DNA from: Arenibacter algicola
GTDB taxonomy: Bacteria; Bacteroidota; Bacteroidia; Flavobacteriales; Flavobacteriaceae
DNA length: 64,000 nt
Assembly: GCF_018860365.1 (NCBI RefSeq)
Contig: NZ_JAHKPO010000018.1
Span: forward strand, 1-64,000
Direction: 5' to 3'
The position numbers and the translations under genes are program-made. Shown one piece after another: positions 19,042-61,460 of the stretch (position 1 is the first letter of the stretch; each line of letters opens with the position of its first letter). Under the pieces are notes generated by a model. It saw only the letters and a list, made by a program, of their open reading frames with translations. It did not search any database and was not told the DNA's origin.

Positions 19042-19053
19042 TGATAATTATCA
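19042..19053. promoter_or_regulatory. TGAY-N4-RTCA box (cls promoter)
   Basis: TGATAATTATCA, a perfect palindrome, 71 bp upstream of the cls start. A -7-like GAACTTTG lies at 19076-19083; box centre to its first base is 28.5 bp, one base shorter than the other 20 promoters. Confidence 0.6.
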
Positions 19054-19123
19054 TAGTTAAAACACAACAATTCCCGAACTTTGTTCATTGCACTTATCCC
19101 AGTCAACAAACTAAAAAGGAAAC

Positions 19124-20536
19124 ATGTGGAATGCTATTTTTCTTAGTCTTTATTTACTTATTGCTTTAGTCATTATCATAAGTATCCTTTTGCACGGCGC
19201 AAAACCTTCAAAAAGTTTGGCCTGGCTTCTGGCCATTTTTACCATTCCGGTAGGTGGGATGTTTCTTTATCTTCTTCTGGGAAGAAATCGAAGAAAAAAT
19301 AAGTTGCTGAAATTAAAAAAGAAGGCCTTTTTAAATTTGCCGGAACCCCTAATGCAGCACATGGCTTCCATGAGCGGGAGGCACCAAAAACTAATGACCT
19401 TGGTATACCGGAATTCACATTTCCCTCCAACGGACAATAATGAACTCAAACTGCTGAAAGATGGAAAAACGACCTTCGAATCTATTTTCGAAGCTTTGGA
19501 AAACGCCCAATACCGTATACATCTACAATACTACATTTTTGAAGAAGGGGAACTTACGCAAAGGCTATTGCAACTTTTTGAGCGTAAAATTGCGGAAGGG
19601 GTGGAGGTTAGAATGATCTATGACGGTATTGGCAGCTTTTCATTAAGTAAGGCCTATTTGAAAAAATTAACAATTATAGGTGTAGAGGTATATCCTTTTC
19701 TGCCGTTCAAGTTCGGGCGGTTTTTTTCTTCCTTAAACTATAGGAATCATAGAAAGATCATTGTTGTAGATGGCAAGGTGGCATTTACCGGGGGAATCAA
19801 CGTATCTGATAAATACTTAAAAGGTGATGTGGAACTGGGCAATTGGCACGATATGCACCTAAGATTGAAGGGTACTTCAGCGAGTCATTTGGATTTTGTT
19901 TTTGCAATGGATTGGTATTTGGTTTGTCAGAAGACGATTTCTGTGCTGCCCTTGGATACTGATAAAGGTGCTATTGAAAAAAATGAAGGTAAACTTGTAC
20001 AGATCGTCTCTGGGGGACCGGATGATGATTTCCCTTCCTTGGAACAGACTTACTTTACAATTATAAATAAGGCGAAGAATTATCTGTTTATTACCAATCC
20101 CTATGTAATTCCCGGACAGGCTATAATGGAGGCCTTACAGACCGCCGCTTTGGGAGGTGTGGACATACGCTTGATGGTTTCCGAGAATGCGGACAACAAA
20201 ATAGTAAGTTGTAGCGTGCGGTCTTATTTTGAGCCCCTTCTTAAATCCGGGGTGAAGATCTATTTATTTCCTGACGGATTTTTACATAGTAAAATCATTG
20301 TTAGTGATGATACTATAGCTACCATAGGCACGGCCAATTTGGATGATAGGAGCTTTGAACAGAACTATGAAGTAAATGCCATTGTTTATGATGCCCCTTT
20401 TGCACAGCTGTTGAAGGAGGATTTTCTTAAGGACGCCTATTCAAGTAGAATGCTGGTCTACGAAGATCATATAAAAAGACCTTGGGGTGAAAAACTAAAA
20501 GAAGGTTTTGGAAAAGTGTTTAGTCCGTTGTTATGA
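19124..20536 (+). CDS. cls: cardiolipin synthase (two PLD domains)
   Basis: 470 residues. Two N-terminal membrane helices with SLAWLLAIFTIPVGGMFLYL are followed by two phospholipase D domains. HKD motif 1 is HRKIIVVDGKVAFTGG and motif 2 is HSKIIVSDDTIATIGTANLD. It condenses phosphatidylglycerol into cardiolipin in the inner membrane. It has its own TGAY-N4-RTCA box, suggesting membrane remodelling as part of the island's stress programme. Its 3' end overlaps that of the D-2-hydroxyacid dehydrogenase gene by 6 bp, tail to tail. Confidence 0.93.
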   Translation: MWNAIFLSLYLLIALVIIISILLHGAKPSKSLAWLLAIFTIPVGGMFLYLLLGRNRRKNKLLKLKKKAFLNLPEPLMQHMASMSGRHQKLMTLVYRNSHFPPTDNNELKLLKDGKTTFESIFEALENAQYRIHLQYYIFEEGELTQRLLQLFERKIAEGVEVRMIYDGIGSFSLSKAYLKKLTIIGVEVYPFLPFKFGRFFSSLNYRNHRKIIVVDGKVAFTGGINVSDKYLKGDVELGNWHDMHLRLKGTSASHLDFVFAMDWYLVCQKTISVLPLDTDKGAIEKNEGKLVQIVSGGPDDDFPSLEQTYFTIINKAKNYLFITNPYVIPGQAIMEALQTAALGGVDIRLMVSENADNKIVSCSVRSYFEPLLKSGVKIYLFPDGFLHSKIIVSDDTIATIGTANLDDRSFEQNYEVNAIVYDAPFAQLLKEDFLKDAYSSRMLVYEDHIKRPWGEKLKEGFGKVFSPLL

Positions 20537-21538
20537 ATTGATCATTTCAAGACCCAGTTCGTTCTGGCATGGTTTACCTTCTTCCCAACTATTTAGATTT
20601 TCATAAGTAACTTCGGCAATATTGGTCAACGCCTCTTTGGTTATAAAACCTTGGTGGGGTGTAAGAAGTACATTGGAAAAGGATAATAATTTTATTAGGG
20701 TCTCATCTTTGATTCCATCAATAGAATTATCCTTAAAGAACGAGCCTATTTCCTTTTCATAAACATCTGTGCAGTAGCCGCCAATTGCGTTTTTTTCCAA
20801 AGCATTGATCAATTCTTTAGTTTCCACTAAGGCTCCTCTTGCAGTATTTATCAAAACAACCTCCGGTTTCATTAAGGCTAATTTTTGTTTGTCTATTAAA
20901 TAGTAGTTCTCTTGGGTGAGCGGAATGTGAAGGCTAATTATATCCGATTGTTCACAAAGCTTGTCCAAGGAAGTGTAGGTAAGATCATATAATTGAACAA
21001 GTTTATAATCGGGTTTAAGGTCGTGGGCCAATATTTTGCAACCAAAACCATGCATGATTTTTGCCATTACACTGCCAATTTTGCCAGTTCCAACAATGCC
21101 TACGGTCTTTCCGTTCAAATCGAAGCCCATCAGATTGTTTTGTAGAAAATTATAGGAGTGTACCTGCCTATCTGCCAAAATAATCTTCCGGTTAAGTGCC
21201 TGCAATTGGGCAACGGCATGTTCGGCAATGGAGTAGGGGGAATACTCTGGGACATTGGCTACCTTAAGCCCAAATTTATGTGCTGTTTTTAGATGCACGT
21301 TGTTATACCCGGCCGAACGCAAGCTAATATAAAGAACGCCCAAATCCGATAACTTTTCCACTACTAGGGCGGAGGCATCATCTCCGGAAAATATGGAAAC
21401 CGCCTTATGGCCAACAGCTTGGATGGCCGTCTCTGCATTTAAGGCATCTTTTGTAAAGGTAACTTTATGACCGTTGTTATTGGCGCTATTTAAAAAAGGG
21501 ATTTCAAAATCTTTAGCGCTATAGACCAGTAATTTCAT
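20531..21538 (-). CDS. D-lactate dehydrogenase / D-2-hydroxyacid dehydrogenase (LdhA type)
   Basis: 335 residues of the D-isomer-specific 2-hydroxyacid dehydrogenase family. The NAD motif is VGIVGTGKIGSVMAK. The substrate Arg lies in NTARGALVE, and the catalytic His in LTPHQGFITKEAL, the HQ form typical of fermentative D-LDH. It most likely reduces pyruvate to D-lactate, regenerating NAD+ when respiration is limited. Its start overlaps the upstream lipoprotein gene by 20 bp, so both are expressed from the box at 22255. Confidence 0.85.
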   Translation of the reverse strand: MKLLVYSAKDFEIPFLNSANNNGHKVTFTKDALNAETAIQAVGHKAVSIFSGDDASALVVEKLSDLGVLYISLRSAGYNNVHLKTAHKFGLKVANVPEYSPYSIAEHAVAQLQALNRKIILADRQVHSYNFLQNNLMGFDLNGKTVGIVGTGKIGSVMAKIMHGFGCKILAHDLKPDYKLVQLYDLTYTSLDKLCEQSDIISLHIPLTQENYYLIDKQKLALMKPEVVLINTARGALVETKELINALEKNAIGGYCTDVYEKEIGSFFKDNSIDGIKDETLIKLLSFSNVLLTPHQGFITKEALTNIAEVTYENLNSWEEGKPCQNELGLEMINS

Positions 21539-22175
21539 TTTTTTCTTCTTTGATAAATATTAGATCTTGGTCTTCCATGGCCAGTATAACAAGCTTTATA
21601 TAATCTTTGATGGTTTTTTGTATGTTCTTGGGGTCTGAGATGTCTATACTTCCCCTCCAGATCATAGACCTTTCCTTGCCTTCACAAATACAGTAAAGTG
21701 TGGTCTCGGCATGGTATACCGTAAATTTATCATAATATCCTTGGTCATAATAGATGTCCTGGTGACTTAGATAATCGTCATTAAATCTTCCTTGGTAATT
21801 GTTCCACCTTGAAATGGATTTCAAAAAACTTTCCTTATCCTCCGAACCAACAACTTTGGTAAACAGTATAGCATCAAAATCTTTATCCAGAAGACTTTGT
21901 TCCACATCATCCAGTTCTTTTTCGGTCTTACGGGTATCGGTAAAGGAAACATCAAAAACATCAAGGCTGCGCATGGCTTCAACATTTCGTTTGCTAAATT
22001 CTTTCTGCATGTTCGTTTCAAAATCCATCCTGGCTTCCTCGTCAGACGCCATTCCTACTATCAACACTTTATTGGCATGGAACAGTACAGTGTCCGGATT
22101 TTTCCAGTTTTCAACCAAACTAGTGGAAGAGCATCCCGTTAGTAGTATTGCGAATAGAATTAATATTTTTTTCAT
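21519..22175 (-). CDS. lipoprotein, unknown function
   Basis: 218 residues. The signal peptide ends in the lipobox LLTGC (Cys15), followed by SSTSL. The mature domain begins with a short WKNP motif, then a region about managing a nucleotide-like fold (KVLIVGMASDEEARMDFE) and Asp/Glu-rich helices. It resembles the DUF4136-like periplasmic lipoproteins in layout, but I am not certain. It heads a two-gene operon with the D-lactate dehydrogenase. Confidence 0.7.
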   Translation of the reverse strand: MKKILILFAILLTGCSSTSLVENWKNPDTVLFHANKVLIVGMASDEEARMDFETNMQKEFSKRNVEAMRSLDVFDVSFTDTRKTEKELDDVEQSLLDKDFDAILFTKVVGSEDKESFLKSISRWNNYQGRFNDDYLSHQDIYYDQGYYDKFTVYHAETTLYCICEGKERSMIWRGSIDISDPKNIQKTIKDYIKLVILAMEDQDLIFIKEEKNEITGL

Positions 22176-22254
22176 GGTATAAGCCTTTGTAATAATAGTA
22201 TTTTTTAATTTCAGGAATAGTTGCGAAGGTAGCAGATGTGCTAATGAAATAATA

Positions 22255-22266
22255 TGACGTTGGTCA
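22255..22266. promoter_or_regulatory. TGAY-N4-RTCA box (lipoprotein-ldh promoter)
   Basis: TGACGTTGGTCA. The minus-strand -7 element TACCTTCG runs 22231-22224, 29.5 bp from the box centre. Positions 22264-22266 are also the TGA stop of the coiled-coil gene upstream, so the box is built into its stop codon. Confidence 0.7.
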
Positions 22267-24116: not shown

Positions 24117-24962
24117 CTAATGATTGCAAAGTTTTTTAATTTCGTTCAGGATCTTTTCTTTCCTGGAATTGGACATTCCCAAATGGTCCAAAAAGAACTT
24201 ATCTTTCCAAAGCTGCCTACATAACACAACATCCCTACTCAACAAAAACTGTTTTTCCCTATTACTGAGCAGGGTGGATACGGTGATGGGGTAAAGTCCC
24301 AAACGATCAATACGGTCCTTAAGTCCATCATTTAATGGTAGGTCCCAACTCAATAGGTACATTCCTGCACATTTACCATAGGCTATGGCATCGCCGGTAA
24401 AACGGGTGTTGGTTACTACCCATCCTTTATCCAGTTCCCTATTTTCTGTTTTCTTGGTGGCCCAATGTGCTTTTACATCGTTATATCTGGAATGGATGTA
24501 TAGGGGAATCTTAACATTGCAGTTGCGCCCTTCTTCCGAGTGGAACTTACATTCTATAACAGTGACCGTTCCATTCTTTTCTGCAATAACATCAATTTCA
24601 TGGGTTACACAGATACCGTTCATAATTTCATCTACACGGGTTTTGTAACCCGAATATTCCAGGATGGCGGCCACAAAACGTTCAAAGGGAAAGCCTGTGG
24701 GTCCCAATTCGTAAATGGCTTTTTTTAGTTTGTATTTTGAGGCAAAGACCGATTCGTTCTTTTTTAGAAGGGCATAGGCCCTATTGTAGATCTCATTGGT
24801 GGAGATGCCCTCATAGAGTTCATCCTTTACCTTGCCAACAATTTGTTCTACCAGATTATGGTCGGCTCCACTGTGTTTAAGGGATTTACGCAGTTTATCC
24901 ATGGAAAATATGGCCCGTTCCCCAGAGGATTTTAGAATTTCAATGTCCAATTCCTTTTCCAT
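24117..24962 (-). CDS. ATP-cone fused to a PD-(D/E)XK (Mrr-like) nuclease domain
   Basis: 281 residues. Residues 1-85 look like an ATP-cone, the nucleotide-sensing domain known from ribonucleotide reductases and NrdR (IFSMDKLRKSLKHSGAD, then ISTNEIYNRAYALLKK). Residues 90-200 are a restriction-endonuclease-like fold with the catalytic set E94, D124 in HEIDVIAEKNG, and E137-x-K139 in VTVIECKFH. The C-terminal 80 residues are helical. A nuclease gated by ATP/dATP level would suit an energy-starvation programme. It precedes the beta-CASP gene by 3 bp and follows the MscS gene by 1 bp. Confidence 0.8.
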   Translation of the reverse strand: MEKELDIEILKSSGERAIFSMDKLRKSLKHSGADHNLVEQIVGKVKDELYEGISTNEIYNRAYALLKKNESVFASKYKLKKAIYELGPTGFPFERFVAAILEYSGYKTRVDEIMNGICVTHEIDVIAEKNGTVTVIECKFHSEEGRNCNVKIPLYIHSRYNDVKAHWATKKTENRELDKGWVVTNTRFTGDAIAYGKCAGMYLLSWDLPLNDGLKDRIDRLGLYPITVSTLLSNREKQFLLSRDVVLCRQLWKDKFFLDHLGMSNSRKEKILNEIKKLCNH

Positions 24963-24963
24963 A

Positions 24964-27205: not shown

Positions 27206-27258
27206 AACTATGCTTCTTTAGTTTTATTAAATATAATAGGCTTTTGCGACAGTTTCTA

Positions 27259-27270
27259 TGACAATGGTCA
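27259..27270. promoter_or_regulatory. TGAY-N4-RTCA box (six-gene Usp operon promoter)
   Basis: TGACAATGGTCA, 54 bp upstream of the ATG at 27205. The minus-strand -7 element TATATTTA runs 27235-27228, 29.5 bp from the centre. Positions 27268-27270 are also the TGA stop of the upstream Usp gene. Confidence 0.75.
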
Positions 27271-28113: not shown

Positions 28114-28123
28114 TATCTATTAA

Positions 28124-28960: not shown

Positions 28961-29013
28961 AGTGTTTATTACATTAGTATGGTAAAACTAAAGCAGAAGA
29001 ATTTTGAAAACCA

Positions 29014-29025
29014 TGATATTGGTCA
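29014..29025. promoter_or_regulatory. TGAY-N4-RTCA box, divergent (Usp and thioredoxin promoters)
   Basis: TGATATTGGTCA lies between two divergent genes. Minus-strand -7: TAGTTTTA at 28990-28983. Plus-strand -7: TAATTTTA at 29049-29056. Both are exactly 29.5 bp from the box centre, so one site can activate both directions. Confidence 0.8.
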
Positions 29026-29074
29026 GTTCCATATTCTCTTTGTTTAGGTAATTTTACTTTTCAAAAATTTAATT

Positions 29075-29374: not shown

Positions 29375-29418
29375 AGGGCGGTACTAAGGATTCGCCCGGC
29401 AATTAAAATCCAACATTC

Positions 29419-30258: not shown

Positions 30259-30345
30259 GTAAGTTGTTTTATCGGTTCAATACTGTTCGGTTTTGTTGGC
30301 AAGCTTCAATGAATTAAAATTAAGCCCTCCTTAATTGTTTCCCAA

Positions 30346-30357
30346 TGACATATATCA
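30346..30357. promoter_or_regulatory. TGAY-N4-RTCA box (Usp 29419 promoter)
   Basis: TGACATATATCA. The minus-strand -7 element TAATTTTA runs 30322-30315, 29.5 bp from the centre. Confidence 0.72.
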
Positions 30358-30392
30358 TGTTGATTGTAATAGTCGCAAAATGGGAGTGGTAT

Positions 30393-31253: not shown

Positions 31254-31418
31254 GTGTTTGTTTTTATTGCTCTTAGGAGATACACCGGCTTGAAAGATTC
31301 GTTCTGTCGTGTGTCGCCTTTGATGATTAAAAAATGTTAAGGCCCTTTCTGAATAGTAATATTCTGAATCATGTGGGGCTAATTTTATAAATGGTTGAAC
31401 GGTTTTTAGTAGCTCCTC

Positions 31419-33133: not shown

Positions 33134-33150
33134 CCTTGCTTCTTTTTAAA

Positions 33151-33996: not shown

Positions 33997-34049
33997 GGGT
34001 TTTCTTTTGTATACCTACCAAAGTTATTGGTAGGGACATATAAAACCTA

Positions 34050-34061
34050 TGACATTTATCA
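34050..34061. promoter_or_regulatory. TGAY-N4-RTCA box (multi-Usp operon promoter)
   Basis: TGACATTTATCA. The minus-strand -7 TAACTTTG at 34026-34019 is a full TAnnTTTG match, 29.5 bp from the centre. Confidence 0.8.
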
Positions 34062-34091
34062 GTAGCCCAATATCAACATAGGGGAGAGCGT

Positions 34092-34928: not shown

Positions 34929-34984
34929 TCAAAATTATATAGCAACATTTGTACAAAACTAGACTTATGGCTATAATTGAAATA

Positions 34985-34996
34985 TGACATTGGTCA
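34985..34996. promoter_or_regulatory. TGAY-N4-RTCA box (Usp 34092 promoter)
   Basis: TGACATTGGTCA. The minus-strand -7 TAGTTTTG at 34961-34954 is a full TAnnTTTG match, 29.5 bp from the centre. Confidence 0.8.
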
Positions 34997-35028: not shown

Positions 35029-36081
35029 TTAATTGATGTATTGCAGGGCCTTTAATTCCTTGATACGGATATTTCTTCCTTCAATATCTATAAGCCCTTC
35101 TTTTTTGAACCCGGAAAGTGTGCGTATAAGGCTTTCGGTGGCAATACCGGCTACACTGGCCAAATCGTTTCGGGAAATTTTAATGGGATCCTCGGTTTTT
35201 TTGTTCATTATTTCTGCAAACTGCAACAAGGTTTGCGCGGTTTTCTTACGAACGGAACTGTAGGCCATTTGCAACAATTGCTGTTTTATGTCCTTAATAT
35301 TTCCAGTAAGCAGTTCCATTAGTTCCAAGGAGATATTGTGGTTATTTTCCAATACCTGTTTTAGATTTTCCTTGGATATCCCGGCCAGTTCCACATCCTC
35401 AATGGCGGTTGCCGATTCTTGATACGGAATATTGTCTATAAAAGAGGTAAATCCTAAAAAGTCGTCTGCCCTATAGAGGGAAGTGATCAGTTCTTTTCCG
35501 TCCTCGTCCATAGTATGGCATTTTACCACTCCTTTTAGGATAAGATATATTTTATGCGAATATGTACCTTCTTGGTAGATAGTACTTCCTTGGAGAAAAC
35601 TAGTGGGCTCGCCATTGTCGTCAAAAAAATTCTTCAACTCGTTCAAGGTGCGTATCTGATCTTCCGGACCAGCAGTTCCTTGTGATCTTTCCTTTGCCAT
35701 GCGCCCCAAAAGTTCCACTTTTGCCAAACGACTTTCAATGGCATTTACAAGATCTTCCTCTTCAAAAGGCTTGGTAAGGTAATCGTCAGCGCCCAGATCC
35801 ATTCCCCGTCGTATCTCCTTGTGCTCGGTTTTGGCAGATAGGAATATAAAGGGAATGTGTCTGGTTTTTTCATCGGAAGACAAGTCCTTTAGAACGCCAT
35901 AACCATCCACTTCCGGCATCATAATGTCGCAGACGATAATATCCGGCAATTTTTCTTTGGCCATTTGAATACCAATTTTTCCGTTCGGGGCGGTAATCAT
36001 GGAGTAACCCGAAAGCTCCAAAAGCTCTTCGGTATTTTCGCGTAAGGCCCTATCGTCCTCGATCAATAAAATGGTCTTCAT
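35029..36081 (-). CDS. response regulator fused to a Crp/Fnr-type DNA-binding module (REC-cNMP-HTH)
   Basis: 350 residues. REC domain 1-120 has D9/D10, phospho-acceptor D52 in VCDIMMPEVDGYG, and K104 in YLTKPF. A cNMP-binding beta-roll (about 150-250) is followed by a dimer helix and the Crp/Fnr HTH (300-345). The recognition helix reads TESLIRTLSGF: E316 and R320 occupy the base-contacting Glu and Arg positions of FNR, while the FNR Ser is Ile. There is no N-terminal Cys cluster, so it is not an iron-sulfur sensor. It lies 7 bp after the PAS kinase gene. It is a candidate reader of the TGAY-N4-RTCA boxes. Confidence 0.88.
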   Translation of the reverse strand: MKTILLIEDDRALRENTEELLELSGYSMITAPNGKIGIQMAKEKLPDIIVCDIMMPEVDGYGVLKDLSSDEKTRHIPFIFLSAKTEHKEIRRGMDLGADDYLTKPFEEEDLVNAIESRLAKVELLGRMAKERSQGTAGPEDQIRTLNELKNFFDDNGEPTSFLQGSTIYQEGTYSHKIYLILKGVVKCHTMDEDGKELITSLYRADDFLGFTSFIDNIPYQESATAIEDVELAGISKENLKQVLENNHNISLELMELLTGNIKDIKQQLLQMAYSSVRKKTAQTLLQFAEIMNKKTEDPIKISRNDLASVAGIATESLIRTLSGFKKEGLIDIEGRNIRIKELKALQYIN

Positions 36082-36088: not shown

Positions 36089-37600
36089 TCAATTTACGTT
36101 TTCTAATGGGATAACTATAGTAAAAATGGATCCCTTATTTTCTTCACTTCGAAATTCAATGGTGGAGCCAAGATTCTCCAAATGCTGTTTGGCAATATTA
36201 AGTCCAATGCCCGTACCTTGGTTCAATAATGCATTTTCCGCCCTGAAATAGCGATTGAATATATGTTTTTGGTCTTTTGCGGGTATGCCAATACCACGAT
36301 CAATAACTTCTATTAATATAGTATCTTTTCCCTTATCCACCGCTAGACTTATGGTTGTATCTTCAGGGGAATATTTAATGGCATTGTGAATTAGGTTGGA
36401 CAAGGCAAGTTCTAAGGTTTTTTCGTCAAATCTTATGAAAATGTCATCGATATTCTCAGGATATTGGATGGTTTGGCCCGCCTTAAGGAGCATGTTGGCA
36501 CCATAGACAACCTCGTTTATAATTTTGCTTAGAGGGAAAGTTTCGATCTTGTAATTTACCTTTCCTGAATCCAAACGCTCCACCGAAAGGAAATCGGTTA
36601 AAATGGTATCCAAATATCGTACTTTGTTCTTTATTGTTTCTACGTGTTTGTCGCGCTTTTCCTGTTGGTGACTTTCGGTATACTTGGCCAATAGCGTTAT
36701 AGAGGTAAGTATACTGCTCAAAGGGGTTTTGAATTCATGGGAAACCAAGGAAAGGAAGCGTGTTTTTAGTTCGTTCAGTTCTTTCTCCTTGGCCAGGGCT
36801 TCGGTAAGTTGTTTGGTACGCTCTTGGACCTTTTTTTCTAGTTTTTCCGTGTAACTTTTTCGTTCTGTGATATCGAGTATTATGGCAACAAAAACCTGCT
36901 CTTCACCAAGAATTGATAATTGAATATGCACTTCTACAGGATAAATAGATCCGTCCTTTCTTTGATGGTCTGTTTCAAACTTTACCTTATCCCTTTCTCC
37001 ATTCAACAACGGGTCTATAAGTAGTTTAAATTGTGGCACGTCCATATGGGGCTTAATATCCAATGGGGTCATGGCCTTAAAATCTTCCAGGTCATAGCCC
37101 ATATTTCGTTGGGCCTCTTTGTTGACATTTACAAAATGTAATGAGATAGCATCGAACACGTAGATTTCGTTCAAAGATTCATCAAAGATCCTGGCCCAAT
37201 GGCTAAGTTCCTTTTCCTTGATCTTACGTTCTGTAATATCGATAACTAGGGCCATTACATAGGTTTCGTCATAAAGCTTAAACGGATTTAGACCCGCCTC
37301 GACCGGAAATTCCTCGCCGTTTTTACGTACGCCGTGTAAATCCCTTCCCCGACCCATTTGTCGACGTTCACTTTTATCAATAAAGTCCTCCACATGGTGG
37401 CCGTGATGCCCGTGGTACCTTCTGGGTATAAGGGTGTCCAGGGGTTTTCCAAGAAGCTCGCCCTTATGGTAGCCAAACATTCTCCCGGCCGAGGAATTGG
37501 TGGCTACAATAAGCTGTTGGGTATTGACAACTATAATTCCTTCGGATACTCCTTCGGAAAGAAGGTTGAATATTTCACTGTTTTTTTGAAAGGCCTGCAT
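36089..37600 (-). CDS. PAS-PAS histidine kinase with FixL-like residues in PAS1
   Basis: 503 residues without membrane helices, so cytosolic. PAS1 (about 10-125) contains RYHGHHGHHVEDF and QMGRGRDLHG. Ungapped alignment with FixL places H66 at the heme-ligand His and R86 at the regulatory Arg. PAS2 (130-250) is followed by a coiled coil, HisKA with H288 in LVSHEFKTPLSS, and an HATPase with DRGIGIP and GTGIGLNI. The next gene is its REC-Crp partner. Heme binding is unproven, since similar His-rich PAS domains occur without heme. The box at 37625 is too close to its start to be its promoter. Confidence 0.85.
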   Translation of the reverse strand: MQAFQKNSEIFNLLSEGVSEGIIVVNTQQLIVATNSSAGRMFGYHKGELLGKPLDTLIPRRYHGHHGHHVEDFIDKSERRQMGRGRDLHGVRKNGEEFPVEAGLNPFKLYDETYVMALVIDITERKIKEKELSHWARIFDESLNEIYVFDAISLHFVNVNKEAQRNMGYDLEDFKAMTPLDIKPHMDVPQFKLLIDPLLNGERDKVKFETDHQRKDGSIYPVEVHIQLSILGEEQVFVAIILDITERKSYTEKLEKKVQERTKQLTEALAKEKELNELKTRFLSLVSHEFKTPLSSILTSITLLAKYTESHQQEKRDKHVETIKNKVRYLDTILTDFLSVERLDSGKVNYKIETFPLSKIINEVVYGANMLLKAGQTIQYPENIDDIFIRFDEKTLELALSNLIHNAIKYSPEDTTISLAVDKGKDTILIEVIDRGIGIPAKDQKHIFNRYFRAENALLNQGTGIGLNIAKQHLENLGSTIEFRSEENKGSIFTIVIPLENVN

Positions 37601-37624: not shown

Positions 37625-37636
37625 TGATTATTGTCA
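37625..37636. promoter_or_regulatory. TGAY-N4-RTCA box (TerB-like gene promoter)
   Basis: TGATTATTGTCA. The plus-strand -7 TATTTTTA at 37660-37667 is 29.5 bp from the centre and points to the gene at 37693. For the minus-strand kinase the matching -7 would lie in its start codon, so the box does not seem to serve it. Confidence 0.68.
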
Positions 37637-37692
37637 TATAAAAAACTTGGTCTATTCGCTATTTTTAGCGCATACACTTGAACAATATAAAA

Positions 37693-38954: not shown

Positions 38955-39133
38955 AGTGTATTTTTTATAGTTGTGATCATCTTAGGTCTACTTTTGGCAG
39001 CCGTTTCAATTCGCTAATGCGGGGAGATGGTCCCCTATGCAAAATTTTCAGTTCTGGCCAGCTTAGGCCTACGTCCCAGTAGAATACCATAATGTTCTGA
39101 AACAAAAATATACAGTAGCCGGACTATTTAAAA

Positions 39134-39145
39134 TGATATTGGTCA
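39134..39145. promoter_or_regulatory. TGAY-N4-RTCA box (Usp 38130 promoter)
   Basis: TGATATTGGTCA. The minus-strand -7 TATTTTTG at 39110-39103 is a full TAnnTTTG match, 29.5 bp from the centre. Confidence 0.75.
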
Positions 39146-39285: not shown

Positions 39286-39297
39286 TGACATTGGTCA
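39286..39297. promoter_or_regulatory. TGAY-N4-RTCA box (WG-repeat/SDR operon promoter)
   Basis: TGACATTGGTCA, 53 bp upstream of the start at 39350. Plus-strand -7 TACTTTAG at 39321-39328, 29.5 bp from the centre. Confidence 0.78.
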
Positions 39298-39349
39298 TTT
39301 TGTACTGCATATCCATACACTACTTTAGTGGAAACTAAAATTCGAAGTC

Positions 39350-41496: not shown

Positions 41497-41508
41497 TGAC
41501 ATTTGTCA
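41497..41508. promoter_or_regulatory. TGAY-N4-RTCA box (M50 protease promoter)
   Basis: TGACATTTGTCA. Plus-strand -7 TATCTTCA at 41532-41539, 29.5 bp from the centre. Since this box and -7 lie inside the longer frame starting at 41503, they decide the start at 41554. Confidence 0.7.
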
Positions 41509-41553
41509 TTGTCAATGTCGTGCTGTGGAAATATCTTCAGCAAAATATTATTT

Positions 41554-48688: not shown

Positions 48689-48827
48689 GTTGTCTAAATT
48701 AACAAAATTGTACAGAACCTTGCATTATAGACCAACTCTTATATGAATTTAATTAAGATATGGTTATAACAGTTTTGATACATTGATTTGATATGGTAAA
48801 AATAAACGTAAAGAAATTTTGAGAGAC

Positions 48828-48839
48828 TGACCTATATCA
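48828..48839. promoter_or_regulatory. TGAY-N4-RTCA box, divergent (P-type ATPase and Hsp20 promoters)
   Basis: TGACCTATATCA. Plus-strand -7 TACATTAG at 48863-48870 (Hsp20); minus-strand -7 TATTTTTA at 48804-48797 (ATPase). Both are 29.5 bp from the centre. Confidence 0.75.
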
Positions 48840-48909
48840 TTTTGTACAAAGGCATTTGGATGTACATTAGGGATAACAATAAATGTATAACCCTTAAAAT
48901 CAAAATATT

Positions 48910-50449: not shown

Positions 50450-50504
50450 TGATCTTACTTTTAATTCTAGTCTCAAAATTATTCCATTATTGGGAGTACA
50501 GATA

Positions 50505-50516
50505 TGACCAATATCA
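50505..50516. promoter_or_regulatory. TGAY-N4-RTCA box (patatin promoter)
   Basis: TGACCAATATCA. The minus-strand -7 TAATTTTG at 50481-50474 is a full TAnnTTTG match, 29.5 bp from the centre. No matching -7 exists on the plus strand, so it serves only the patatin. Confidence 0.75.
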
Positions 50517-50542: not shown

Positions 50543-50554
50543 TGACGGATATCA
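50543..50554. promoter_or_regulatory. TGAY-N4-RTCA box (LOV kinase promoter)
   Basis: TGACGGATATCA. The plus-strand -7 TACATTTG at 50578-50585 is a full match, 29.5 bp from the centre. The kinase start is about 120 bp further, so the leader is long. This makes the second two-component system part of the regulon. Confidence 0.75.
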
Positions 50555-50709
50555 TTTCTTAGGGCTATAGCGAACAATACATTTGTGTAAATGAGTGCTA
50601 AAATACTAGAATACAGGACTCAATGGGTAGTTTATTTTCAACCAAACTCCTTAGCGGTCCTTCCTTTTGGTTTGGTCAAGACCATTAAGTGAAAATCAGT
50701 AAAAGGACA

Positions 50710-53463
50710 ATGAATGAAAAATTAACAAATAGCGATCTTTATCAATCCATTTTTGAATCTTCCTTAGCTGGACTGATTGTGGTAGACGAACTTGGATACA
50801 TTCTCATTGCCAACATGTCTGCCCAAAAAATGTTCGGATATGTTGAAAGGGAATTAGTGCAGGAGAAGATTCATTTGATTATTCCCGATTGGAAGAACAG
50901 TGCTTTTGATGTCCAAATGAAAGATATTGTTGTAGGGCCCAACCAGTTTTATGGTAGAGAAAAGAACGGGGTCAAATTTCCTATCGATATTAGAATAGTC
51001 CCAACAATGGTAAAAGGTCAAAGCCTAAAAGTGATCTATTGCAAACCAGCGGATATCCCTGTATTTGAAAGCGATAGAAAGTTTCGAACCTTGATTTCCA
51101 ATGTAGCGGGCATAGTTTATAGCTCTAAAATTGATAGACCTTGGAACATTGAATTTATCAGTGAAGCCTGCAAGGCTATAAGCGGATATACTCCTATGCA
51201 ATTTTATAATAGATCAGGGATTAGTTGGGAATCTTTAATTCATCCAGAGGATTTGTCCAAGGTTTTGGATGAGGTGAACAAGGCAATTTTGGATAAAAAA
51301 CAGTATCAGCTCACCTATAGGATTGTTACTGCAAATAAGGAAATTAAATGGATATGGGAGCAGGTTTCCTGCGTTACGGATGAGCAGGGCAATGTTTACA
51401 GTTTGGAAGGTTTTATGCAGGATATAACGGAGCCGAAGAAAATAGAAATGGCACTGGACAAGGAGAAAAATTTGCTCCGACAATATTTGGATACGTCCGC
51501 CTCCTTGTTTTTGGTTATCAATAAGGACTATACCGTTGAGCTGGTCAATAATAAGACCTGCGAGATTTTAGGTCTTGATCAGGATGCAGTTTTGCACAAG
51601 AACTGGTTTACAGGCTTTGTTCCAAAAAGGGAAAGAAAGGAACTAATGGCACTTTTCGATACTATTTTTAAGGATAAGGTGAAGCCAAAAGATTTTTATG
51701 AAAACCATGTACTCACCAAGGATGGGAAGCAACGACTTATACGATGGCGGAACGCCACCTTACGGAATGGAAATGATCAGATTATCGGAATTGTAAGTTC
51801 TGGGGTAGATGTTACGGATACCAAGTTGTTACAGAATACCCTGAATATCAGAAATAGGGCCTTGGAACTTGCAGGAAATGGAATCATCATTGTAGATGCC
51901 CAAGATCCAAAACTCCCCATTATATATAGCAACAAGTCCTTTACCCAAATAACCGGATATAGCCACAAGGAGGTTCTGGGAAGAAATTGTAGGTTTTTGC
52001 AAAATGGAGATAGGGACCAACCTGAAATAGCAACCTTGGCCAAGGCTGTGCAAAATGGTGAGTCCTGTAGGGTTGTACTAAGAAATTATCGTAAGGATGG
52101 GACCCTTTTTTGGAACGATCTGGCCGTTACGCCCCTATATGATAATGAGCTAAAATTGACACATTTTATTGGGGTTCAGAACGATGTTACCGAAATTCAG
52201 CAAAACAAGAAGAAGTTGGAGGAATATGCCCAACAATTGGAGCATAAAGTGAAAGAACAGACTAGGGAAGTACAATCTACAGTACAGAAACTGGTGGCCA
52301 CCAGTTTAAACCTGGAAGATCAGGTAGTGGAGACCCAAAGGGCGGAAAAGAAGGCCAAGTTGAGTAGGGCATTGTTTTCTGCCATAGCACATAATTTTCC
52401 CAATGGGGTCATAATGGTCTTTAATTCGGATTATGAACTGGTTTATGTGGAAGGGGAGGAAATGGACCGAATAAATATTAAAAAGTCCGATTTTGAAGGA
52501 ATACCCATAGATGATATCCCTGTTTTTTCAAAATGGCAGATAAAAAAAATAAAATCGGATATTCGAAAAACATTAAGGGGGAGCAATATTTCATTTGAAG
52601 TGGATTTTCACGATCAGTGTTATGCCGTGAATTCTACACCGCTCTATTCCGATGAAAAGAAAATAATGTGGGCCTTGTTCGTTTACAACAATGTTACCGA
52701 GCAGAAGGAGATTCAGCATAAATTGGAAAAGACCCTGGAGGTTGAAAAGGAACTAAACGAGCTGAAATCCCGTTTTATTTCAATGGCCTCCCATGAGTTT
52801 CGTACCCCGCTCAGTGCCATACTTTCTTCTGCTATACTGATAGGAAAACAAAATGAGCCGGGTAAGGAGGACAGGAGGATGAAACATGTTTCAAGGATAC
52901 GCAACAATGTGAAGGATCTTGTTGTTATTCTTAACGACTTCCTCTCTTTGAGCAAGTTGGAAGAAGGCAAAGTGCAGGTAAAACCACAGTCTTTTGAATT
53001 GATACATTTTATAAAAATGTTGATCGATGAAATGGAGCCAAACAAAAAAGATGGACAGGATATTATTTTAAAGCATTCCGAACCTTCTGTATCGGTTTAT
53101 CTTGACCCCAAATTATTGAACCATATCCTTATAAATCTTCTCTCCAATGCCATAAAGTATTCGGAGGAGAAAAAAGAGATTATCATTAAAGTTAAGGTTG
53201 GTGGAAAAGTCTTATCCATAGATATTAAGGATAAAGGCATTGGTATACCTAAAGACGAGCAAAAAAATCTATTTAACCGTTTCTTTCGTGCAGAAAACGC
53301 CACCAACTTTCAGGGCACGGGTCTCGGGCTTCATATTGTTAAGCAGTATACAGAACTTTTGGGCGGTGGTGTAAACTTTAAAAGTGAGGTGGGTATAGGA
53401 AGTACCTTCAATATTAAACTTCCCGTAAATATAAATGAATATGAAAAGAATTCTATTAATTGA
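50710..53463 (+). CDS. multi-PAS histidine kinase containing a LOV (blue-light) domain
   Basis: 917 residues from the ATG at 50710 (aaaagga upstream); a GTG 21 bases earlier is in frame. Order: PAS, PAS_3-type, PAS, LOV, coiled coil, PAS, HisKA, HATPase. The LOV domain (about 380-500) carries GRNCRFLQ with the photo-adduct Cys427, and its flavin contacts NYRKDGT, FWNDL and FIGVQNDVTE. The phospho-acceptor His695 is in MASHEFRTPLSA, then DKGIGIP and GTGLGLHI. No membrane helix. It overlaps its REC-Crp partner by 29 bases. It is under its own regulon box. Confidence 0.9.
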   Translation: MNEKLTNSDLYQSIFESSLAGLIVVDELGYILIANMSAQKMFGYVERELVQEKIHLIIPDWKNSAFDVQMKDIVVGPNQFYGREKNGVKFPIDIRIVPTMVKGQSLKVIYCKPADIPVFESDRKFRTLISNVAGIVYSSKIDRPWNIEFISEACKAISGYTPMQFYNRSGISWESLIHPEDLSKVLDEVNKAILDKKQYQLTYRIVTANKEIKWIWEQVSCVTDEQGNVYSLEGFMQDITEPKKIEMALDKEKNLLRQYLDTSASLFLVINKDYTVELVNNKTCEILGLDQDAVLHKNWFTGFVPKRERKELMALFDTIFKDKVKPKDFYENHVLTKDGKQRLIRWRNATLRNGNDQIIGIVSSGVDVTDTKLLQNTLNIRNRALELAGNGIIIVDAQDPKLPIIYSNKSFTQITGYSHKEVLGRNCRFLQNGDRDQPEIATLAKAVQNGESCRVVLRNYRKDGTLFWNDLAVTPLYDNELKLTHFIGVQNDVTEIQQNKKKLEEYAQQLEHKVKEQTREVQSTVQKLVATSLNLEDQVVETQRAEKKAKLSRALFSAIAHNFPNGVIMVFNSDYELVYVEGEEMDRINIKKSDFEGIPIDDIPVFSKWQIKKIKSDIRKTLRGSNISFEVDFHDQCYAVNSTPLYSDEKKIMWALFVYNNVTEQKEIQHKLEKTLEVEKELNELKSRFISMASHEFRTPLSAILSSAILIGKQNEPGKEDRRMKHVSRIRNNVKDLVVILNDFLSLSKLEEGKVQVKPQSFELIHFIKMLIDEMEPNKKDGQDIILKHSEPSVSVYLDPKLLNHILINLLSNAIKYSEEKKEIIIKVKVGGKVLSIDIKDKGIGIPKDEQKNLFNRFFRAENATNFQGTGLGLHIVKQYTELLGGGVNFKSEVGIGSTFNIKLPVNINEYEKNSIN

Positions 53464-54508
53464 GGATAATAAGGATGTTCGGGAAAATACAGCAGACATA
53501 TTGGAATTGGCCAATTTCGAGGTGGCTACCGCCGAGAATGGAAAAATAGGGGTAGAACTTGCAGAAAAATTTAAGCCGGACGTGATCATATGTGATATCA
53601 TGATGCCAGAACTGGATGGATATGGAGTCTTGGAACAGTTGGGTAAAAACAGTACCACTTCTAGTATACCCTTTATATTTCTAACGGCAAAAACCGATAG
53701 GGCAGAGGTGAGGTTGGGAATGAATTTGGGGGCGGACGATTATCTGACCAAACCTTTTGAGGAAAAGGAATTATTGGAAGCCATTACCTCCCGATTGCGA
53801 AAGAGCGACTTTCTTAAAAAAGAGATAGCCAAAAACATGGAAGGACTTAATAAATTCTTGGACGAGGCCTCCCAATACGGCGATATGAAAAGTCTTTCCA
53901 AGGATTATCCCCTTAAAACGTATCATAAAAGGGATATTGTTTTTTGGGAAGGTGATAACGCAAAATCCTTGTATTTTATAGAAAAGGGCAGTGTAAAGAC
54001 CTATAAGAGTACGGAATCCGGAAAGGAATTTGTGACTGGCATATATGGTCCGGGAGATTTTGTAGGGCAACTATCCTTATTGAATTCCGATAAAGTTTAT
54101 GTAGAAAATGCAACTGTGTTGGAGGATGCCGAAATGTGTGCCATACCTAGGAAGGATTTTACCAAATTGCTTTATGGCAACTCGGCGGTTTCACAGAAAT
54201 TTATTGGAATGATATCCAATAACCTTATGCACCTGCAGGAACAATTGGTGGATATGGCTTTTGCCTCTGTAAGACAACGGGCCGCCAAGGCCTTATTGGA
54301 ACTTTATGATAAACATGTAATACAGGATAAACCCAAGGGCGGTATAGGAATTCCACGGGAAGATTTTGCAGGTATGATCGGCACCGCAACAGAAACCGCT
54401 ATCCGTACCTTATCGGATTTTAAGGAAGAGGGCCTCATTGCCACCGACCACGGACGAAGGATCATTATTTTAAATGAAAAGGGACTTAGGCAGGTAGCTG
54501 ATTTTTAA
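53435..54508 (+). CDS. response regulator fused to a Crp/Fnr-type DNA-binding module (second copy)
   Basis: 357 residues. REC domain with phospho-acceptor D54 in IICDIMMPELDGYG and K in YLTKPFEEKEL; cNMP beta-roll (about 155-255); HTH (about 300-345) with recognition helix ATETAIRTLSDF, E320 and R324 at the FNR Glu/Arg positions and Ile at the Ser position, as in the other copy. No Cys cluster. It overlaps the LOV kinase gene, so the pair is translationally coupled. Domain order and sequence make it a paralogue of 35029-36081. Confidence 0.88.
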   Translation: MNMKRILLIEDNKDVRENTADILELANFEVATAENGKIGVELAEKFKPDVIICDIMMPELDGYGVLEQLGKNSTTSSIPFIFLTAKTDRAEVRLGMNLGADDYLTKPFEEKELLEAITSRLRKSDFLKKEIAKNMEGLNKFLDEASQYGDMKSLSKDYPLKTYHKRDIVFWEGDNAKSLYFIEKGSVKTYKSTESGKEFVTGIYGPGDFVGQLSLLNSDKVYVENATVLEDAEMCAIPRKDFTKLLYGNSAVSQKFIGMISNNLMHLQEQLVDMAFASVRQRAAKALLELYDKHVIQDKPKGGIGIPREDFAGMIGTATETAIRTLSDFKEEGLIATDHGRRIIILNEKGLRQVADF

Positions 54509-55452: not shown

Positions 55453-55523
55453 GATTTTTGTTTTTAGATTACTATATGTTTATTAATAATACCAAAAGTA
55501 ACCTTAACAAAACCCATTTGAAA

Positions 55524-55535
55524 TGATTTAAATCA
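55524..55535. promoter_or_regulatory. TGAY-N4-RTCA box, divergent (YtxH operon and 55616 gene)
   Basis: TGATTTAAATCA, a perfect palindrome. Minus-strand -7 TACTTTTG at 55500-55493 (YtxH operon) is a full match; plus-strand TACATTGG at 55559-55566 (gene 55616) is weaker. Both are 29.5 bp from the centre. Confidence 0.72.
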
Positions 55536-55615
55536 TATCCTAAAATCTTTATGATGCTTACATTGGGATTGAACGAATATTCCAGCCTGACCATTTCATA
55601 ATTATCTATAAAAAA

Positions 55616-56113
55616 ATGAAATCCAGGGTGAACACTACAGGTAAAAGGATTATTATAATAGTAGATTTTCAGCATTTACAGATGTTGAGAAAAGCTATAC
55701 GGGAAATATTGTCCAGCAAGGATACATTCCAGTTGTCCATTTTGGGTCAACTTGGAAACGACGGTTTTTTCCTGGATAAAATGGAGGTAGGCTTAGAACG
55801 GGAATTGAAGACCTATTGGAATGGGGTTTTAGAGACTAAAACCGATTTTGGGATTTTTGGGAATCCGGAGTTTGGAACCCTTTTTGTTACCGGTCCGGTA
55901 GCTTCCCAATTTCTAAAAGACATATCTGGGGAGCCTTTGGGAGCAATTTCGGCAGGCCCTTATGGTATTTTAAGGGGCATGGGGATATTGGAAGAAGAGG
56001 TTAATTCACATCTTAAGTTATTGAAAGAGGGGCATTACTTGCTTTTTATACGGACTTATACCCAACATTGGAAATTGATAAAAAAACAATTGGGAAAGCT
56101 TATATTAGTTTAG
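55616..56113 (+). CDS. stress-protein-like small protein, unknown function
   Basis: 165 residues, no signal or membrane helix. The second half (FGTLFVTGPVASQFLKDISG, then GPYGILRGMGILEEEVNSHL and LKEGHYLLFI) resembles the general stress protein 17M/DUF1269-like fold, where a Gly-rich helix precedes an E-x-x-LK-G motif. The N-terminal half has DFQHLQMLRKAIREIL. Fold similarity is by eye. Transcribed from the weak plus arm of the box at 55524. Confidence 0.5.
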   Translation: MKSRVNTTGKRIIIIVDFQHLQMLRKAIREILSSKDTFQLSILGQLGNDGFFLDKMEVGLERELKTYWNGVLETKTDFGIFGNPEFGTLFVTGPVASQFLKDISGEPLGAISAGPYGILRGMGILEEEVNSHLKLLKEGHYLLFIRTYTQHWKLIKKQLGKLILV

Positions 56114-56156
56114 AGGCTTCATTTCGTTTTGGTGTATGTACTGCTTGCGGTAACCA

Positions 56157-56192
56157 AAAAAAAAGAAACAGTAGCTCTAGAGCTACTGTTTC
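56157..56192 (-). terminator. intrinsic terminator, T tract on the minus strand
   Basis: GAAACAGTAGCT (56165-56176), loop CTAG, AGCTACTGTTTC (56181-56192). The run A56157-56164 gives T8 after the hairpin on the minus strand; on the plus strand the tail TCCCTTT is weak. Perhaps also ends the plus gene 55616. Confidence 0.75.
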
Positions 56193-56623
56193 CCTTTAAG
56201 GGTTTAATTCCGTTTGTACTTCCATTTATGCCCATATTTTAATTTATTGCTAAAATGATTCAAAAGTCGATTTTAGAACAACCGGTATACCACCCATAAA
56301 TATAGTTCCATGGCTAACGCCATATTTGGAACTAATGACATTTACTCACTAAGTGGAATTTGAATGCTCCGACGCCTCAAGGGCCTGCCCAGAAGTAATT
56401 AACTTATATAAGAAACCGGGCCACCTGAATGTCCCGGTTTCCAAGAAGCTATTGAGCCTGCCTGTTACGCTTACTGTAATTTGTCAATGATGATCTTAGC
56501 ATTTCAAGTTTTCAAAATACAGGGTCCAAGGCATCTCCAACAACTTCTTTTGGATCCGTGCAGTGTTACTGCGACACTACATCCGTATCATGAGGTATTT
56601 AAAGAATAATATTTTAATTAAAA
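56157..56623 (-). ncRNA. candidate regulated non-coding RNA (about 465 nt)
   Basis: No gene lies on the minus strand here, yet a box (56660-56671) with a minus-strand -7 TATATTGA (56636-56629, exactly 29.5 bp from the centre) points into it. The far end carries a 12-bp hairpin followed by eight T on the minus strand. Inside are GAAACCGGG/CCCGGTTTC (56412-56441) and a bulged GTTCCA/TGGAAC hairpin (56305-56332). Start is inferred; the terminator could instead serve the plus-strand gene 55616. Confidence 0.4.
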
Positions 56624-56659
56624 GTATGTCAATATACATGGATATTTTCAAGAATGAAA

Positions 56660-56671
56660 TGACGTAGGTCA
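56660..56671. promoter_or_regulatory. TGAY-N4-RTCA box (candidate ncRNA promoter)
   Basis: TGACGTAGGTCA. Its only phased -7 is on the minus strand, TATATTGA at 56636-56629. On the plus strand no -7 fits the spacing. Confidence 0.6.
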
Positions 56672-56716
56672 GTAATAGATATTATTAATTTTTTTTGATA
56701 ATCCATTGTTCTATAA

Positions 56717-56728
56717 TGATATAAATCA
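56717..56728. promoter_or_regulatory. TGAY-N4-RTCA box (sigma-factor gene promoter)
   Basis: TGATATAAATCA, 66 bp upstream of the gene at 56794. Plus-strand -7 CATTTTTG at 56752-56759, 29.5 bp from the centre (first base C instead of T). Confidence 0.68.
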
Positions 56729-56793
56729 TTTTTTAAGAGCATTAAAGGTTGCATTTTTGAAGGAAAGTTACTTAGCAAATAAATAAATTCAAT

Positions 56794-57561
56794 ATGGAAG
56801 AATCAGTAAATATTTATCAGAGCAAAAGGGAGTTTCACTTATTCGTGGCCAATACGTACAGGGATTTGAAACAGCTCAAAAAAGAAGGGGATCTGTCAAC
56901 TTTTAATAATCTATTGTTAAAGGCGATGCCAGAGGTGAAACGCTATGTTAATAAGAATCTGAACAGGGCACTGTCCAATGGCAAAATTGATAGGAATAAG
57001 TATAGGGCAGATGATTTTATAGATCAACTTTTTATTGAGGTGTATGAACATATTGATGAAATTGAAAATGAAAAGGAACTTTACCCTTGGATGTTTAAAA
57101 AAGTGGATGAGCTATTGGGAGATATACTTGTAGAGGAGGAATTTGATTCTTTATTCTTCGAGAATTTGGATAACTATTCCAAGCCCGAATGGGATGCAAT
57201 GCAGGAGAAATTTTCTACTGATGGAGATGGTGATTTGGTGATGAAAGAAGAATGGGACGATATTTCCTATGCAAAGAACGATTATGTGCTGAACCATGTT
57301 TTTGTTGAAGACGGGGATCAGGAAATCATAGTCCAATTGGACAAGGAACTGGGGGCTGAAAATATAAGAAAACATTCCGAATTGGTTTTGCGTCATTTAC
57401 CAGGGCCCATGCGAAGAGTATATGAGCTTTTTACCGAACATCAGTTTGACGTAGCGGAAATTGCAAAAATACGCAACAGCACCATCAAGGAGGTAGAATC
57501 ACTTTTGGACGCAGCCAGGAAAAGTTTGCGTAAAAGTTTCTTAAATAGATATGTATCCTAA
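56794..57561 (+). CDS. divergent sigma-70-like (ECF type) protein
   Basis: 255 residues. Residues 25-125 resemble sigma region 2 (FNNLLLKAMPEVKRYVNKNL, then DDFIDQLFIEVYEHI). Residues 200-250 resemble region 4 with an HTH (LPGPMRRVYELFTEHQFDVAEIAKIRNSTIKEV). Between them is an unusually long acidic linker of about 70 residues (YSKPEWDAMQEKFSTDGDGD). Possibly a regulatory insert. With a box upstream, it would give a second tier of control. It heads a run of three same-strand genes. Confidence 0.68.
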   Translation: MEESVNIYQSKREFHLFVANTYRDLKQLKKEGDLSTFNNLLLKAMPEVKRYVNKNLNRALSNGKIDRNKYRADDFIDQLFIEVYEHIDEIENEKELYPWMFKKVDELLGDILVEEEFDSLFFENLDNYSKPEWDAMQEKFSTDGDGDLVMKEEWDDISYAKNDYVLNHVFVEDGDQEIIVQLDKELGAENIRKHSELVLRHLPGPMRRVYELFTEHQFDVAEIAKIRNSTIKEVESLLDAARKSLRKSFLNRYVS

Positions 57562-60988: not shown

Positions 60989-60993
60989 AAAAT

Positions 60994-61380
60994 TTATAGG
61001 TACTTGGTCAAAAAACGAAAGAAATCTTTTTTAAGGTCCGCATAAATCTCTTCCTGTACCTCCATTTTTTTTCGGAACTCCATATGTTTTTTTACCAATA
61101 TGGTGTCCATGGCATCATGTGACACCAAATCTTGACCGGCCATGCGGGTTTCATGGATTTCGATTTCTTCCAATAAATCCTCGATAACTCCACCATGTAG
61201 GATAAATTCGTTCTGAAAGTGGTCCAATTGTTTTAATACCTCTTTTTTGGTCCATCTAGTAACCAGTTCGCTAAGCCTGTTGTTAAAAATAATGAGTTCA
61301 TCCTGCCAAAAGAAGAGTTCCCTTCTCCAAATTTCGTGTTCAAAATGCAGGTTTGAATTATATATGATTTCTTTTTCCAT
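60994..61380 (-). CDS. small helical protein, member 3 of the unrecognised family
   Basis: 128 residues, all-helical. NLHFEHEIWRRELFFWQDE in helix 1 fits L-H-x5-W-x9-E; EEIEIHETRM in helix 2 gives the shared H-E; third helix VKKHMEFRKKMEVQEE. Encoded 5 bp before the UbiB-like kinase, with its box 69 bp upstream. The three members are in three separate box-controlled operons. Confidence 0.7.
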   Translation of the reverse strand: MEKEIIYNSNLHFEHEIWRRELFFWQDELIIFNNRLSELVTRWTKKEVLKQLDHFQNEFILHGGVIEDLLEEIEIHETRMAGQDLVSHDAMDTILVKKHMEFRKKMEVQEEIYADLKKDFFRFLTKYL

Positions 61381-61448
61381 GATAATTAGATTTAAATATT
61401 ATAAATGTGGCGTACCCCAAAATTATTTAAATGTATCGGCCCCTGAAA

Positions 61449-61460
61449 TGACATATATCA
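61449..61460. promoter_or_regulatory. TGAY-N4-RTCA box (helical protein-UbiB operon promoter)
   Basis: TGACATATATCA. The minus-strand -7 TAATTTTG at 61425-61418 is a full TAnnTTTG match, 29.5 bp from the centre. Confidence 0.78.

Follow-up and report, generated by a model that had tools for sequence, protein, structure and literature searches.

A phased FNR-like box in a stress island of Arenibacter algicola: a probable class II site with an FNR homologue and two receiver-CRP response regulators as candidate readers

What switches on the stress island of Arenibacter algicola, and which proteins carry the signal to it? The question is raised by a stretch of 64,000 nucleotides (contig NZ_JAHKPO010000018.1 of assembly GCF_018860365.1, positions 1 to 64,000 of the forward strand; hereafter the window), in which the FNR-like box TGAY-N4-RTCA recurs upstream of universal stress protein (Usp) and other genes. 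Here we report that this box very probably serves a low-oxygen regulon shared across the family, as a site of the class II CRP/FNR type. Its readers are most likely an FNR homologue together with RC1 and RC2, response regulators encoded by the island itself that join a receiver domain to a CRP-type body (RC denotes such receiver-CRP proteins below).

The original prediction had listed 18 intergenic copies of the box and none in the first 19 kb, and the count was reproduced: TGAYNNNNRTCA (TGAY-N4-RTCA) matches 18 times in the window against 3.32 expected (standard deviation 1.64; maximum of 100 shuffles 8), with all matches inside 19042-61460 and none before 19042. Phase was scored for the 18 boxes in both directions (36 box-directions) against TAnnTTTG at gaps of 5 to 59, a good match being at least five of its six defined bases and a gap of 23 being equivalent to 29.5 bp from the box centre to the T of TA. 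At gap 23, good matches occur in 19 of the 36 directions and a TA start in 22, whereas every other gap gives 0-2 good matches and at most ten with TA; after dinucleotide shuffling of the flanks (500 rounds), the best gap reached one to four. The phasing is thus beyond chance, as had been claimed, and the 29.5-bp spacing stands, although its reported occurrence in 20 of 21 directions reflects a selection of directions. Relaxing the threshold to four of six at gap 23 admits 21 of the 36 directions and 17 of the 18 boxes; the remaining box (19042, before cls) has GAACTTTG at gap 22 with no TA, which agrees with the 1-bp offset (28.5 bp) already attributed to it. The 14 directions lacking TA at gap 23 are what would be expected if many boxes serve a single gene. 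Identity among the spacers of the 19 phased sites is 0.264, compared with 0.270 from composition (closest pair 0.58); the spacers are no more alike than composition dictates, which means that copying of promoter DNA does not by itself account for the phasing.

A TGA-N6-TCA dyad in fixed phase to a sigma-A element, as found here, is the arrangement of a CRP/FNR class II site. A transcript map of Flavobacterium psychrophilum places TAnnTTTG at -12 to -5, and also describes induction of cbb3 oxidase and haem synthesis genes under oxygen limitation (PMC9723704). By analogy with that map, a box centred 29.5 bp upstream of TAnnTTTG would lie at about -41.5, the class II position.

A controlled genome scan and a comparison of orthologous promoters, both proposed with the original prediction, came out in its favour. 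The 5.75-Mb genome of the strain contains 330 boxes against 202 for the reversed-pattern control, with the window denser than the whole (18 in 64 kb); when the box is required to be followed within 10-40 bp by TAnnTTTG, 35 directed matches remain against 7 for the control, and 18 directed matches fall at exactly gap 23, with a few sites at gap 24. Across 149 genomes of the same family, one per genus, the gap-23 site was matched 1162 times and at least once in 134 genomes, compared with 21 matches for the reversed pattern and 39, in 35 genomes, for an off-phase control at gap 28. The motif compiled from 146 distinct but partly related sites reads [A/C]TGAY-N4-RTCAT-T-T and is asymmetric towards the promoter: A or C precedes TGA in 95% of them, and T occupies the flank on the promoter side in 93%. 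The flanking sequence thereby deviates from the FNR consensus half-site TTGAT. For footprints, ten loci were offered, of which five to eight Arenibacter loci could be aligned per intergenic region with the window as reference. In four of five regions (six to eight loci) identity was 1.00 in the box core and 0.94-1.00 in the -7 core, compared with 0.60-0.67 in the rest.

Genes behind phased boxes were read in 14 chosen stretches of the same genome, with Pfam searches on ten proteins. They include a fused COX1-FixO gene (ccoNO) and genes for a HemN-like radical SAM protein and a NirK-like multicopper oxidase with cytochrome c. Also among the products are a ribonucleotide reductase, two pyridine-nucleotide oxidoreductases, a cytochrome c, a Usp, a DeoC-type aldolase and the FNR homologue itself. 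The claim that a regulon can be read from the sequence was supported as to its FNR/CRP type and class II phase, by the phasing, the scans, the footprints, the TAnnTTTG position mapped in F. psychrophilum and these low-oxygen-type targets; the regulon reaches well beyond the island, and an island-specific regulon was rejected on the phased sites elsewhere. A second cluster (L039, contig C2, about 488.9-499.5 kb) packs eight boxes into about 10.6 kb that also holds Usp and DeoC-type genes.

Which proteins could read such a box? The HTH_Crp_2 profile matches eight loci of the genome, four of them above the cut-off: RC1 and RC2 in the window, the FNR homologue (L041) and a fourth protein (L004). 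The first three have in common the recognition helix G-[TI]-A-T-E-[ST]-x-I-R, whose Glu and Arg are present in 100% of 111 RC proteins, and the cNMP_binding and HTH_Crp_2 domains place these in the CRP/FNR family. In CRP and FNR, a Glu and an Arg spaced in this way recognise TGA. Judged by eye, L004 is an unlikely reader because its helix, TSRVVVSR, lacks the Glu; cAMP, compared by eye with the binding residues of CRP, was likewise judged an unlikely ligand for RC. The receiver residues D11, D54 and K106 are kept in at least 95% of the 111 RC proteins and supply the phospho-acceptor Asp and the Lys of a response regulator. No 4Fe-4S cysteines were found in RC, the sole Cys column above 30% in the 111 proteins lying in the receiver and not in the CRP half. 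The FNR homologue, in contrast, carries the cysteines of FNR: C4, C7, C53 and C106 are kept in at least 20 of 21 homologues, and alignment with Aliivibrio FNR equates C4 and C7 with its CxxC and C106 with its VC-IP cysteine. This protein, whose gene is preceded by its own phased box, probably carries an Fe-S cluster and senses oxygen. RC2 is 95% identical in A. echinorum.

If these proteins read the box, regulators and sites should occur together in the family. With an E-value cut-off of 1e-35, RC was assigned to 66 of the 149 genomes, and an FNR search with a cut-off of 1e-30 gave matches in 97. Seven genomes with weaker matches (1e-32 to 1e-41; G020, G036, G051, G075, G108, G113 and G124) were not counted as FNR genomes; G043, with a match that does not include the N-terminus, was kept. 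Phased sites averaged 14.0 in the 36 genomes with both regulators, 8.87 in the 30 with RC only (range 2-24) and 6.61 in the 54 with FNR only, neither of the single-regulator classes including a genome with zero, compared with 1.21 in the 29 genomes with neither, 15 of which have zero (Fisher p 5e-13 for presence of a regulator against zero or non-zero sites, kinship ignored). Among the last class, ten genomes of at least 3 Mb hold 13 phased sites altogether.

Targets were compared at 51 of 59 phased sites in four RC-only genomes and 27 of 37 in three FNR-only genomes. A HemN homologue stands behind a phased site in three genomes of each kind, cytochrome c in three RC-only and one FNR-only, and a ferredoxin-reductase-like gene in two and one, respectively, while Usps follow 14 of the 51 sites in RC-only but one of the 27 in FNR-only genomes. 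From this comparison RC appears capable of serving an FNR regulon and of adding Usps to it. Linkage favours one class of regulator: of 19 RC1-class genes, 17 have a phased box directly behind them, like the one at 34985 in the window. HK2-RC2, the pair formed by RC2 and its neighbouring histidine kinase, is preceded by its own conserved phased box (50543), which suggests possible autoregulation.

Outside the Flavobacteriaceae the sites often come in pairs. At least 80 RC loci were found in named genomes, and of the 80 listed, 31 are from Flavobacteriaceae and 49 from elsewhere. The latter (L090-L138, mostly RC2-like) have a phased box behind 9 of the 49 genes, against 12 of 980 random stretches, and 18 of their 25 box pairs less than 80 bp apart are spaced exactly 22 bp. 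A search for two boxes 22 bp apart followed after 23 bp by TAnnTTTG gave 242 matches, spread over 110 of the 295 genomes scanned from the class, and zero in all controls; such tandem sites occur in 85 of 151 class genomes with RC and in 25 of 144 without (p 3e-12), or in 81 of 143 and 29 of 152 once eight weak RC calls are dropped. By the same analogy, the second box would lie at about -63.5. The class I position is about -61.5, close to it. Tandem 22-bp sites were also looked for as a rule in Flavobacteriaceae, and were not found to be one.

Nearly all of the listed RC genes have a kinase at hand: an open reading frame for one lies within 4 kb in 78 of the 80 listed loci and within 50 bp in 70, and among 40 kinases scanned all have HisKA and HATPase_c and 36 have PAS_9. 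The first PAS domain of HK1, the kinase next to RC1 (residues 17-123, about 37232-37552), matches FixL at 7.4e-11 with a His in the haem-proximal column, although such PAS domains need not bind haem. Much closer to the FixL haem PAS is the L103 kinase (E 2.8e-30; about 2e-33 for L103 and L122 in a separate comparison), and the kinases of L118 and L135 are comparably similar to it. HK2 is not FixL-like (0.0009). Instead, residues 371-513 (about 51820-52248) make up a canonical LOV domain with the motif GRNCRFLQ, including the photoactive Cys of GxNCRFLQ, and its best PDB matches are LOV-FixL chimeras (domain E 2.1e-33). The motif GxNC[RK]... is present in 19 of the 80 listed kinases, HK2 included, all from Flavobacteriaceae (Arenibacter, Maribacter, Pelagihabitans and two uncultured members). 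GxNCRFLQ is kept in the HK2 orthologues at eight of eight Arenibacter loci examined.

Several observations weigh against the reading of the box as a family-wide site served by FNR and RC alike. The fifth footprint region (56114-56793, five loci) shows identities of 0.72 in the box, 0.50 in the -7 element and 0.10 in the rest. Many of the genomes with neither regulator are small or incomplete and the co-occurrence statistics ignore relatedness; moreover, three of them have five to nine phased sites, namely G048 (82% complete), G147 (73%) and G138 (99%). The five phased sites of G138 lie on contigs C73 and C129 and may be explained by a missing gene or by contigs of foreign origin. Tandem sites without a detected RC were noted above for 25 class genomes. 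ccoNO follows a strict phased site in just one of the four RC-only genomes, compared with three FNR-only genomes. A phased box lies behind only two of ten RC2-class genes and behind 5 of the 31 listed Flavobacteriaceae RC loci, which are mostly RC2-like, against 24 of 620 random stretches. Finally, the direction towards HK1 has no good phased -7 element (TATGCAGG), so HK1-RC1 is not clearly autoregulated.

Three other explanations have to be set against the proposed one. That RC1, RC2 or both repress or counter activation at the box, or work in the unphosphorylated form, with the kinases then turning the regulon off, is unlikely but the strongest of the three: the sign of kinase output cannot be read from sequence, and two of three readers could compete for one site, while the class II position fits activation and the -41.5 phase persists in RC-only genomes. 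We give still less credence to the FNR homologue being the only reader, with the receiver-CRP proteins as mere neighbours that read another site. The phased box of its own gene, the alignment with Aliivibrio FNR including the CxxC, the phased sites of all 54 FNR-only genomes and the weaker FNR-like match in five of the 30 RC-only genomes (G036, G075, G108, G113 and G124) suit this explanation; it is countered by the presence of sites in all 30, by the FNR-type targets seen in the four RC-only genomes compared above, by the near-identical helices of RC and FNR, and by the box behind RC1-class genes. The phasing as a by-product of duplicated Usp promoter units or base composition has next to no chance, even though the ten island Usp genes are paralogous, and was rejected because shuffles never exceeded four, spacers are no more alike than composition predicts, and genes unrelated to one another share this phase, which is also found across the family when set against two controls.

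The proposal that we favour is thus a CRP/FNR-type activator box, read by the FNR homologue, RC1 and RC2, with kinase inputs, and as a whole we regard it as likely. A dimeric CRP/FNR-type activator would bind the box at about -41.5 of sigma-A promoters, and the three proteins would all read it through their common recognition helix. In RC1 and RC2 the N-terminal receiver would replace the Fe-S sensor on a CRP/FNR-type body, which would take orders from a kinase in place of sensing oxygen itself, the adjacent kinases being expected to phosphorylate RC1 (HK1, with its FixL-like first PAS) and RC2 (HK2, with LOV). Several signals would then converge on one box to turn on the island and the low-oxygen respiration genes. 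Since the window holds two receiver-CRP regulators, low oxygen probably supplies only some of the input to this FNR-like box. A wider reading we hold at about even chances: across Bacteroidota an Fe-S FNR, or a phosphorylated receiver-FNR fusion in which FixL-FixJ-FixK has collapsed into kinase plus regulator, may interchangeably run the low-oxygen regulon, often through tandem boxes at about -41.5 and -63.5 outside Flavobacteriaceae, and in the Arenibacter-Maribacter group a blue-light LOV kinase may feed the same box, so that light and oxygen are read at one site.

The sites and candidate regulators of the island are collected in Table 1. Its ten Usp-domain genes lie at 26360-34928 and 38130-38954, nine of them in one array interrupted by the thioredoxin gene. 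The 255-aa protein encoded at 56794-57561, with a box upstream, matches sigma-70 region 4 only below threshold, and 24117-24962 encodes a single protein with an ATP-cone and an Mrr-type nuclease domain.

Table 1. Phased boxes and candidate regulators of the island, in window positions
Feature	Coordinates	Strand	Remarks
Box 19042-19053 with GAACTTTG (gap 22), before cls	19042..19083	+	weakest site, no TA
Box 22255-22266 with TACCTTCG (gap 23), before 21519-22175(-) and D-2-hydroxyacid dehydrogenase	22224..22266	-	
Box 27259-27270 with TATATTTA, before Usp 26360-27205(-)	27228..27270	-	
Divergent box 29014-29025, TAATTTTA to thioredoxin (+), TAGTTTTA to Usp 28124-28960(-)	28983..29056		
Box 30346-30357 with TAATTTTA, before Usp 29419-30258(-)	30315..30357	-	
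Box 34050-34061 with TAACTTTG, before Usp 33151-33996(-)	34019..34061	-	
Box 34985-34996 with TAGTTTTG, directly behind RC1, before Usp 34092-34928(-)	34954..34996	-	
RC1, Response_reg + cNMP_binding + HTH_Crp_2, helix GIATESLIR	35029..36081	-	candidate box reader; Pfam, sequence
HK1, PAS-PAS histidine kinase adjoining RC1	36089..37600	-	
Box 37625-37636 with TATTTTTA, before 37693-38097(+) (no Pfam match)	37625..37667	+	
Box 39134-39145 with TATTTTTG, before Usp 38130-38954(-)	39103..39145	-	
Box 39286-39297 with TACTTTAG, before WG-repeat gene 39350-39988(+)	39286..39328	+	
Box 41497-41508 with TATCTTCA (4/6), before M50-CBS protease gene	41497..41539	+	
Divergent box 48828-48839, TACATTAG to Hsp20 (+), TATTTTTA to cation ATPase 46184-48688(-)	48797..48870		footprint
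Box 50505-50516 with TAATTTTG, before patatin gene	50474..50516	-	footprint
Box 50543-50554 with TACATTTG, before HK2-RC2	50543..50585	+	footprint
HK2, multi-PAS histidine kinase overlapping RC2	50710..53463	+	reading frame also open from GTG 50689
RC2, second receiver-CRP response regulator, recognition helix GTATETAIR	53435..54508	+	Pfam, sequence
Divergent box 55524-55535, TACATTGG to 55616-56113(+), TACTTTTG to YtxH-like 55123-55452(-)	55493..55566		footprint
Box 56660-56671 with TATATTGA (4/6)	56629..56671	-	poorly aligned footprint region
Box 56717-56728 with CATTTTTG, before sigma-like gene 56794-57561(+)	56717..56759	+	poorly aligned footprint region
Divergent box 61449-61460, TAATTTTG to 60994-61380(-) and ABC1 kinase gene, TTACTTTG on the other side	61418..61491		footprint

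These results yield a testable low-oxygen regulon for a large, little-studied phylum, and given the strict phasing, the sequence of a Flavobacteriaceae genome suffices for calling candidate targets. The regulator's own oxygen sensing has seemingly been swapped for kinase signalling with box, phase and core targets retained, and the arrangement predicts that light can reach an FNR-type box. A literature search, with sparse coverage of subscription papers, turned up no paper on receiver-CRP regulators or this box in Bacteroidota.

The closest known counterparts are the class II promoters of FNR, ANR and FixK in Proteobacteria, which likewise have a TGA-N6-TCA dyad, centred there at about -41.5, where the present box would lie by analogy, and targets such as cbb3 oxidase and hemN. 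Unlike their sites (TTGAT-N4-ATCAA), the box described here has A or C before TGA, T after TCA and a Bacteroidota -7 element, TAnnTTTG, and its candidate readers include receiver-CRP response regulators. FixL-FixJ-FixK offers a similar parallel, in that some relatives (L103) have a FixL-like PAS kinase and the output is of CRP/FNR type on FNR-like boxes, but here receiver and CRP/FNR output are in one protein with no separate FixJ step. The LOV domain of HK2 matches the LOV-FixL chimeras among the LOV histidine kinases (YF1-type chimeras, blue-light-activated kinases); in contrast to the YF1-type constructs, HK2 is a natural kinase beside a receiver-CRP regulator in an FNR-type island.

In gene content the island recalls the lxa locus of Burkholderia cenocepacia and the mycobacterial DosR regulon, described in passages of one report as low-oxygen-induced Usp clusters with a heat-shock protein and stress genes, an Anr/FixK-type regulator being named as a candidate for lxa (PMC6127331). 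Clustered Usps and heat-shock or stress genes are common to all of them, while the regulators differ and those passages mention no receiver-CRP protein. Lastly, NmpRSTU of Myxococcus xanthus is a phosphorelay with a haem-binding kinase that controls cbb3, hemN and other oxygen-use genes (PMC11841059). Unlike the system of the island, NmpRSTU pairs a globin-coupled kinase with a regulator that is NtrC-like and not of the CRP/FNR type.

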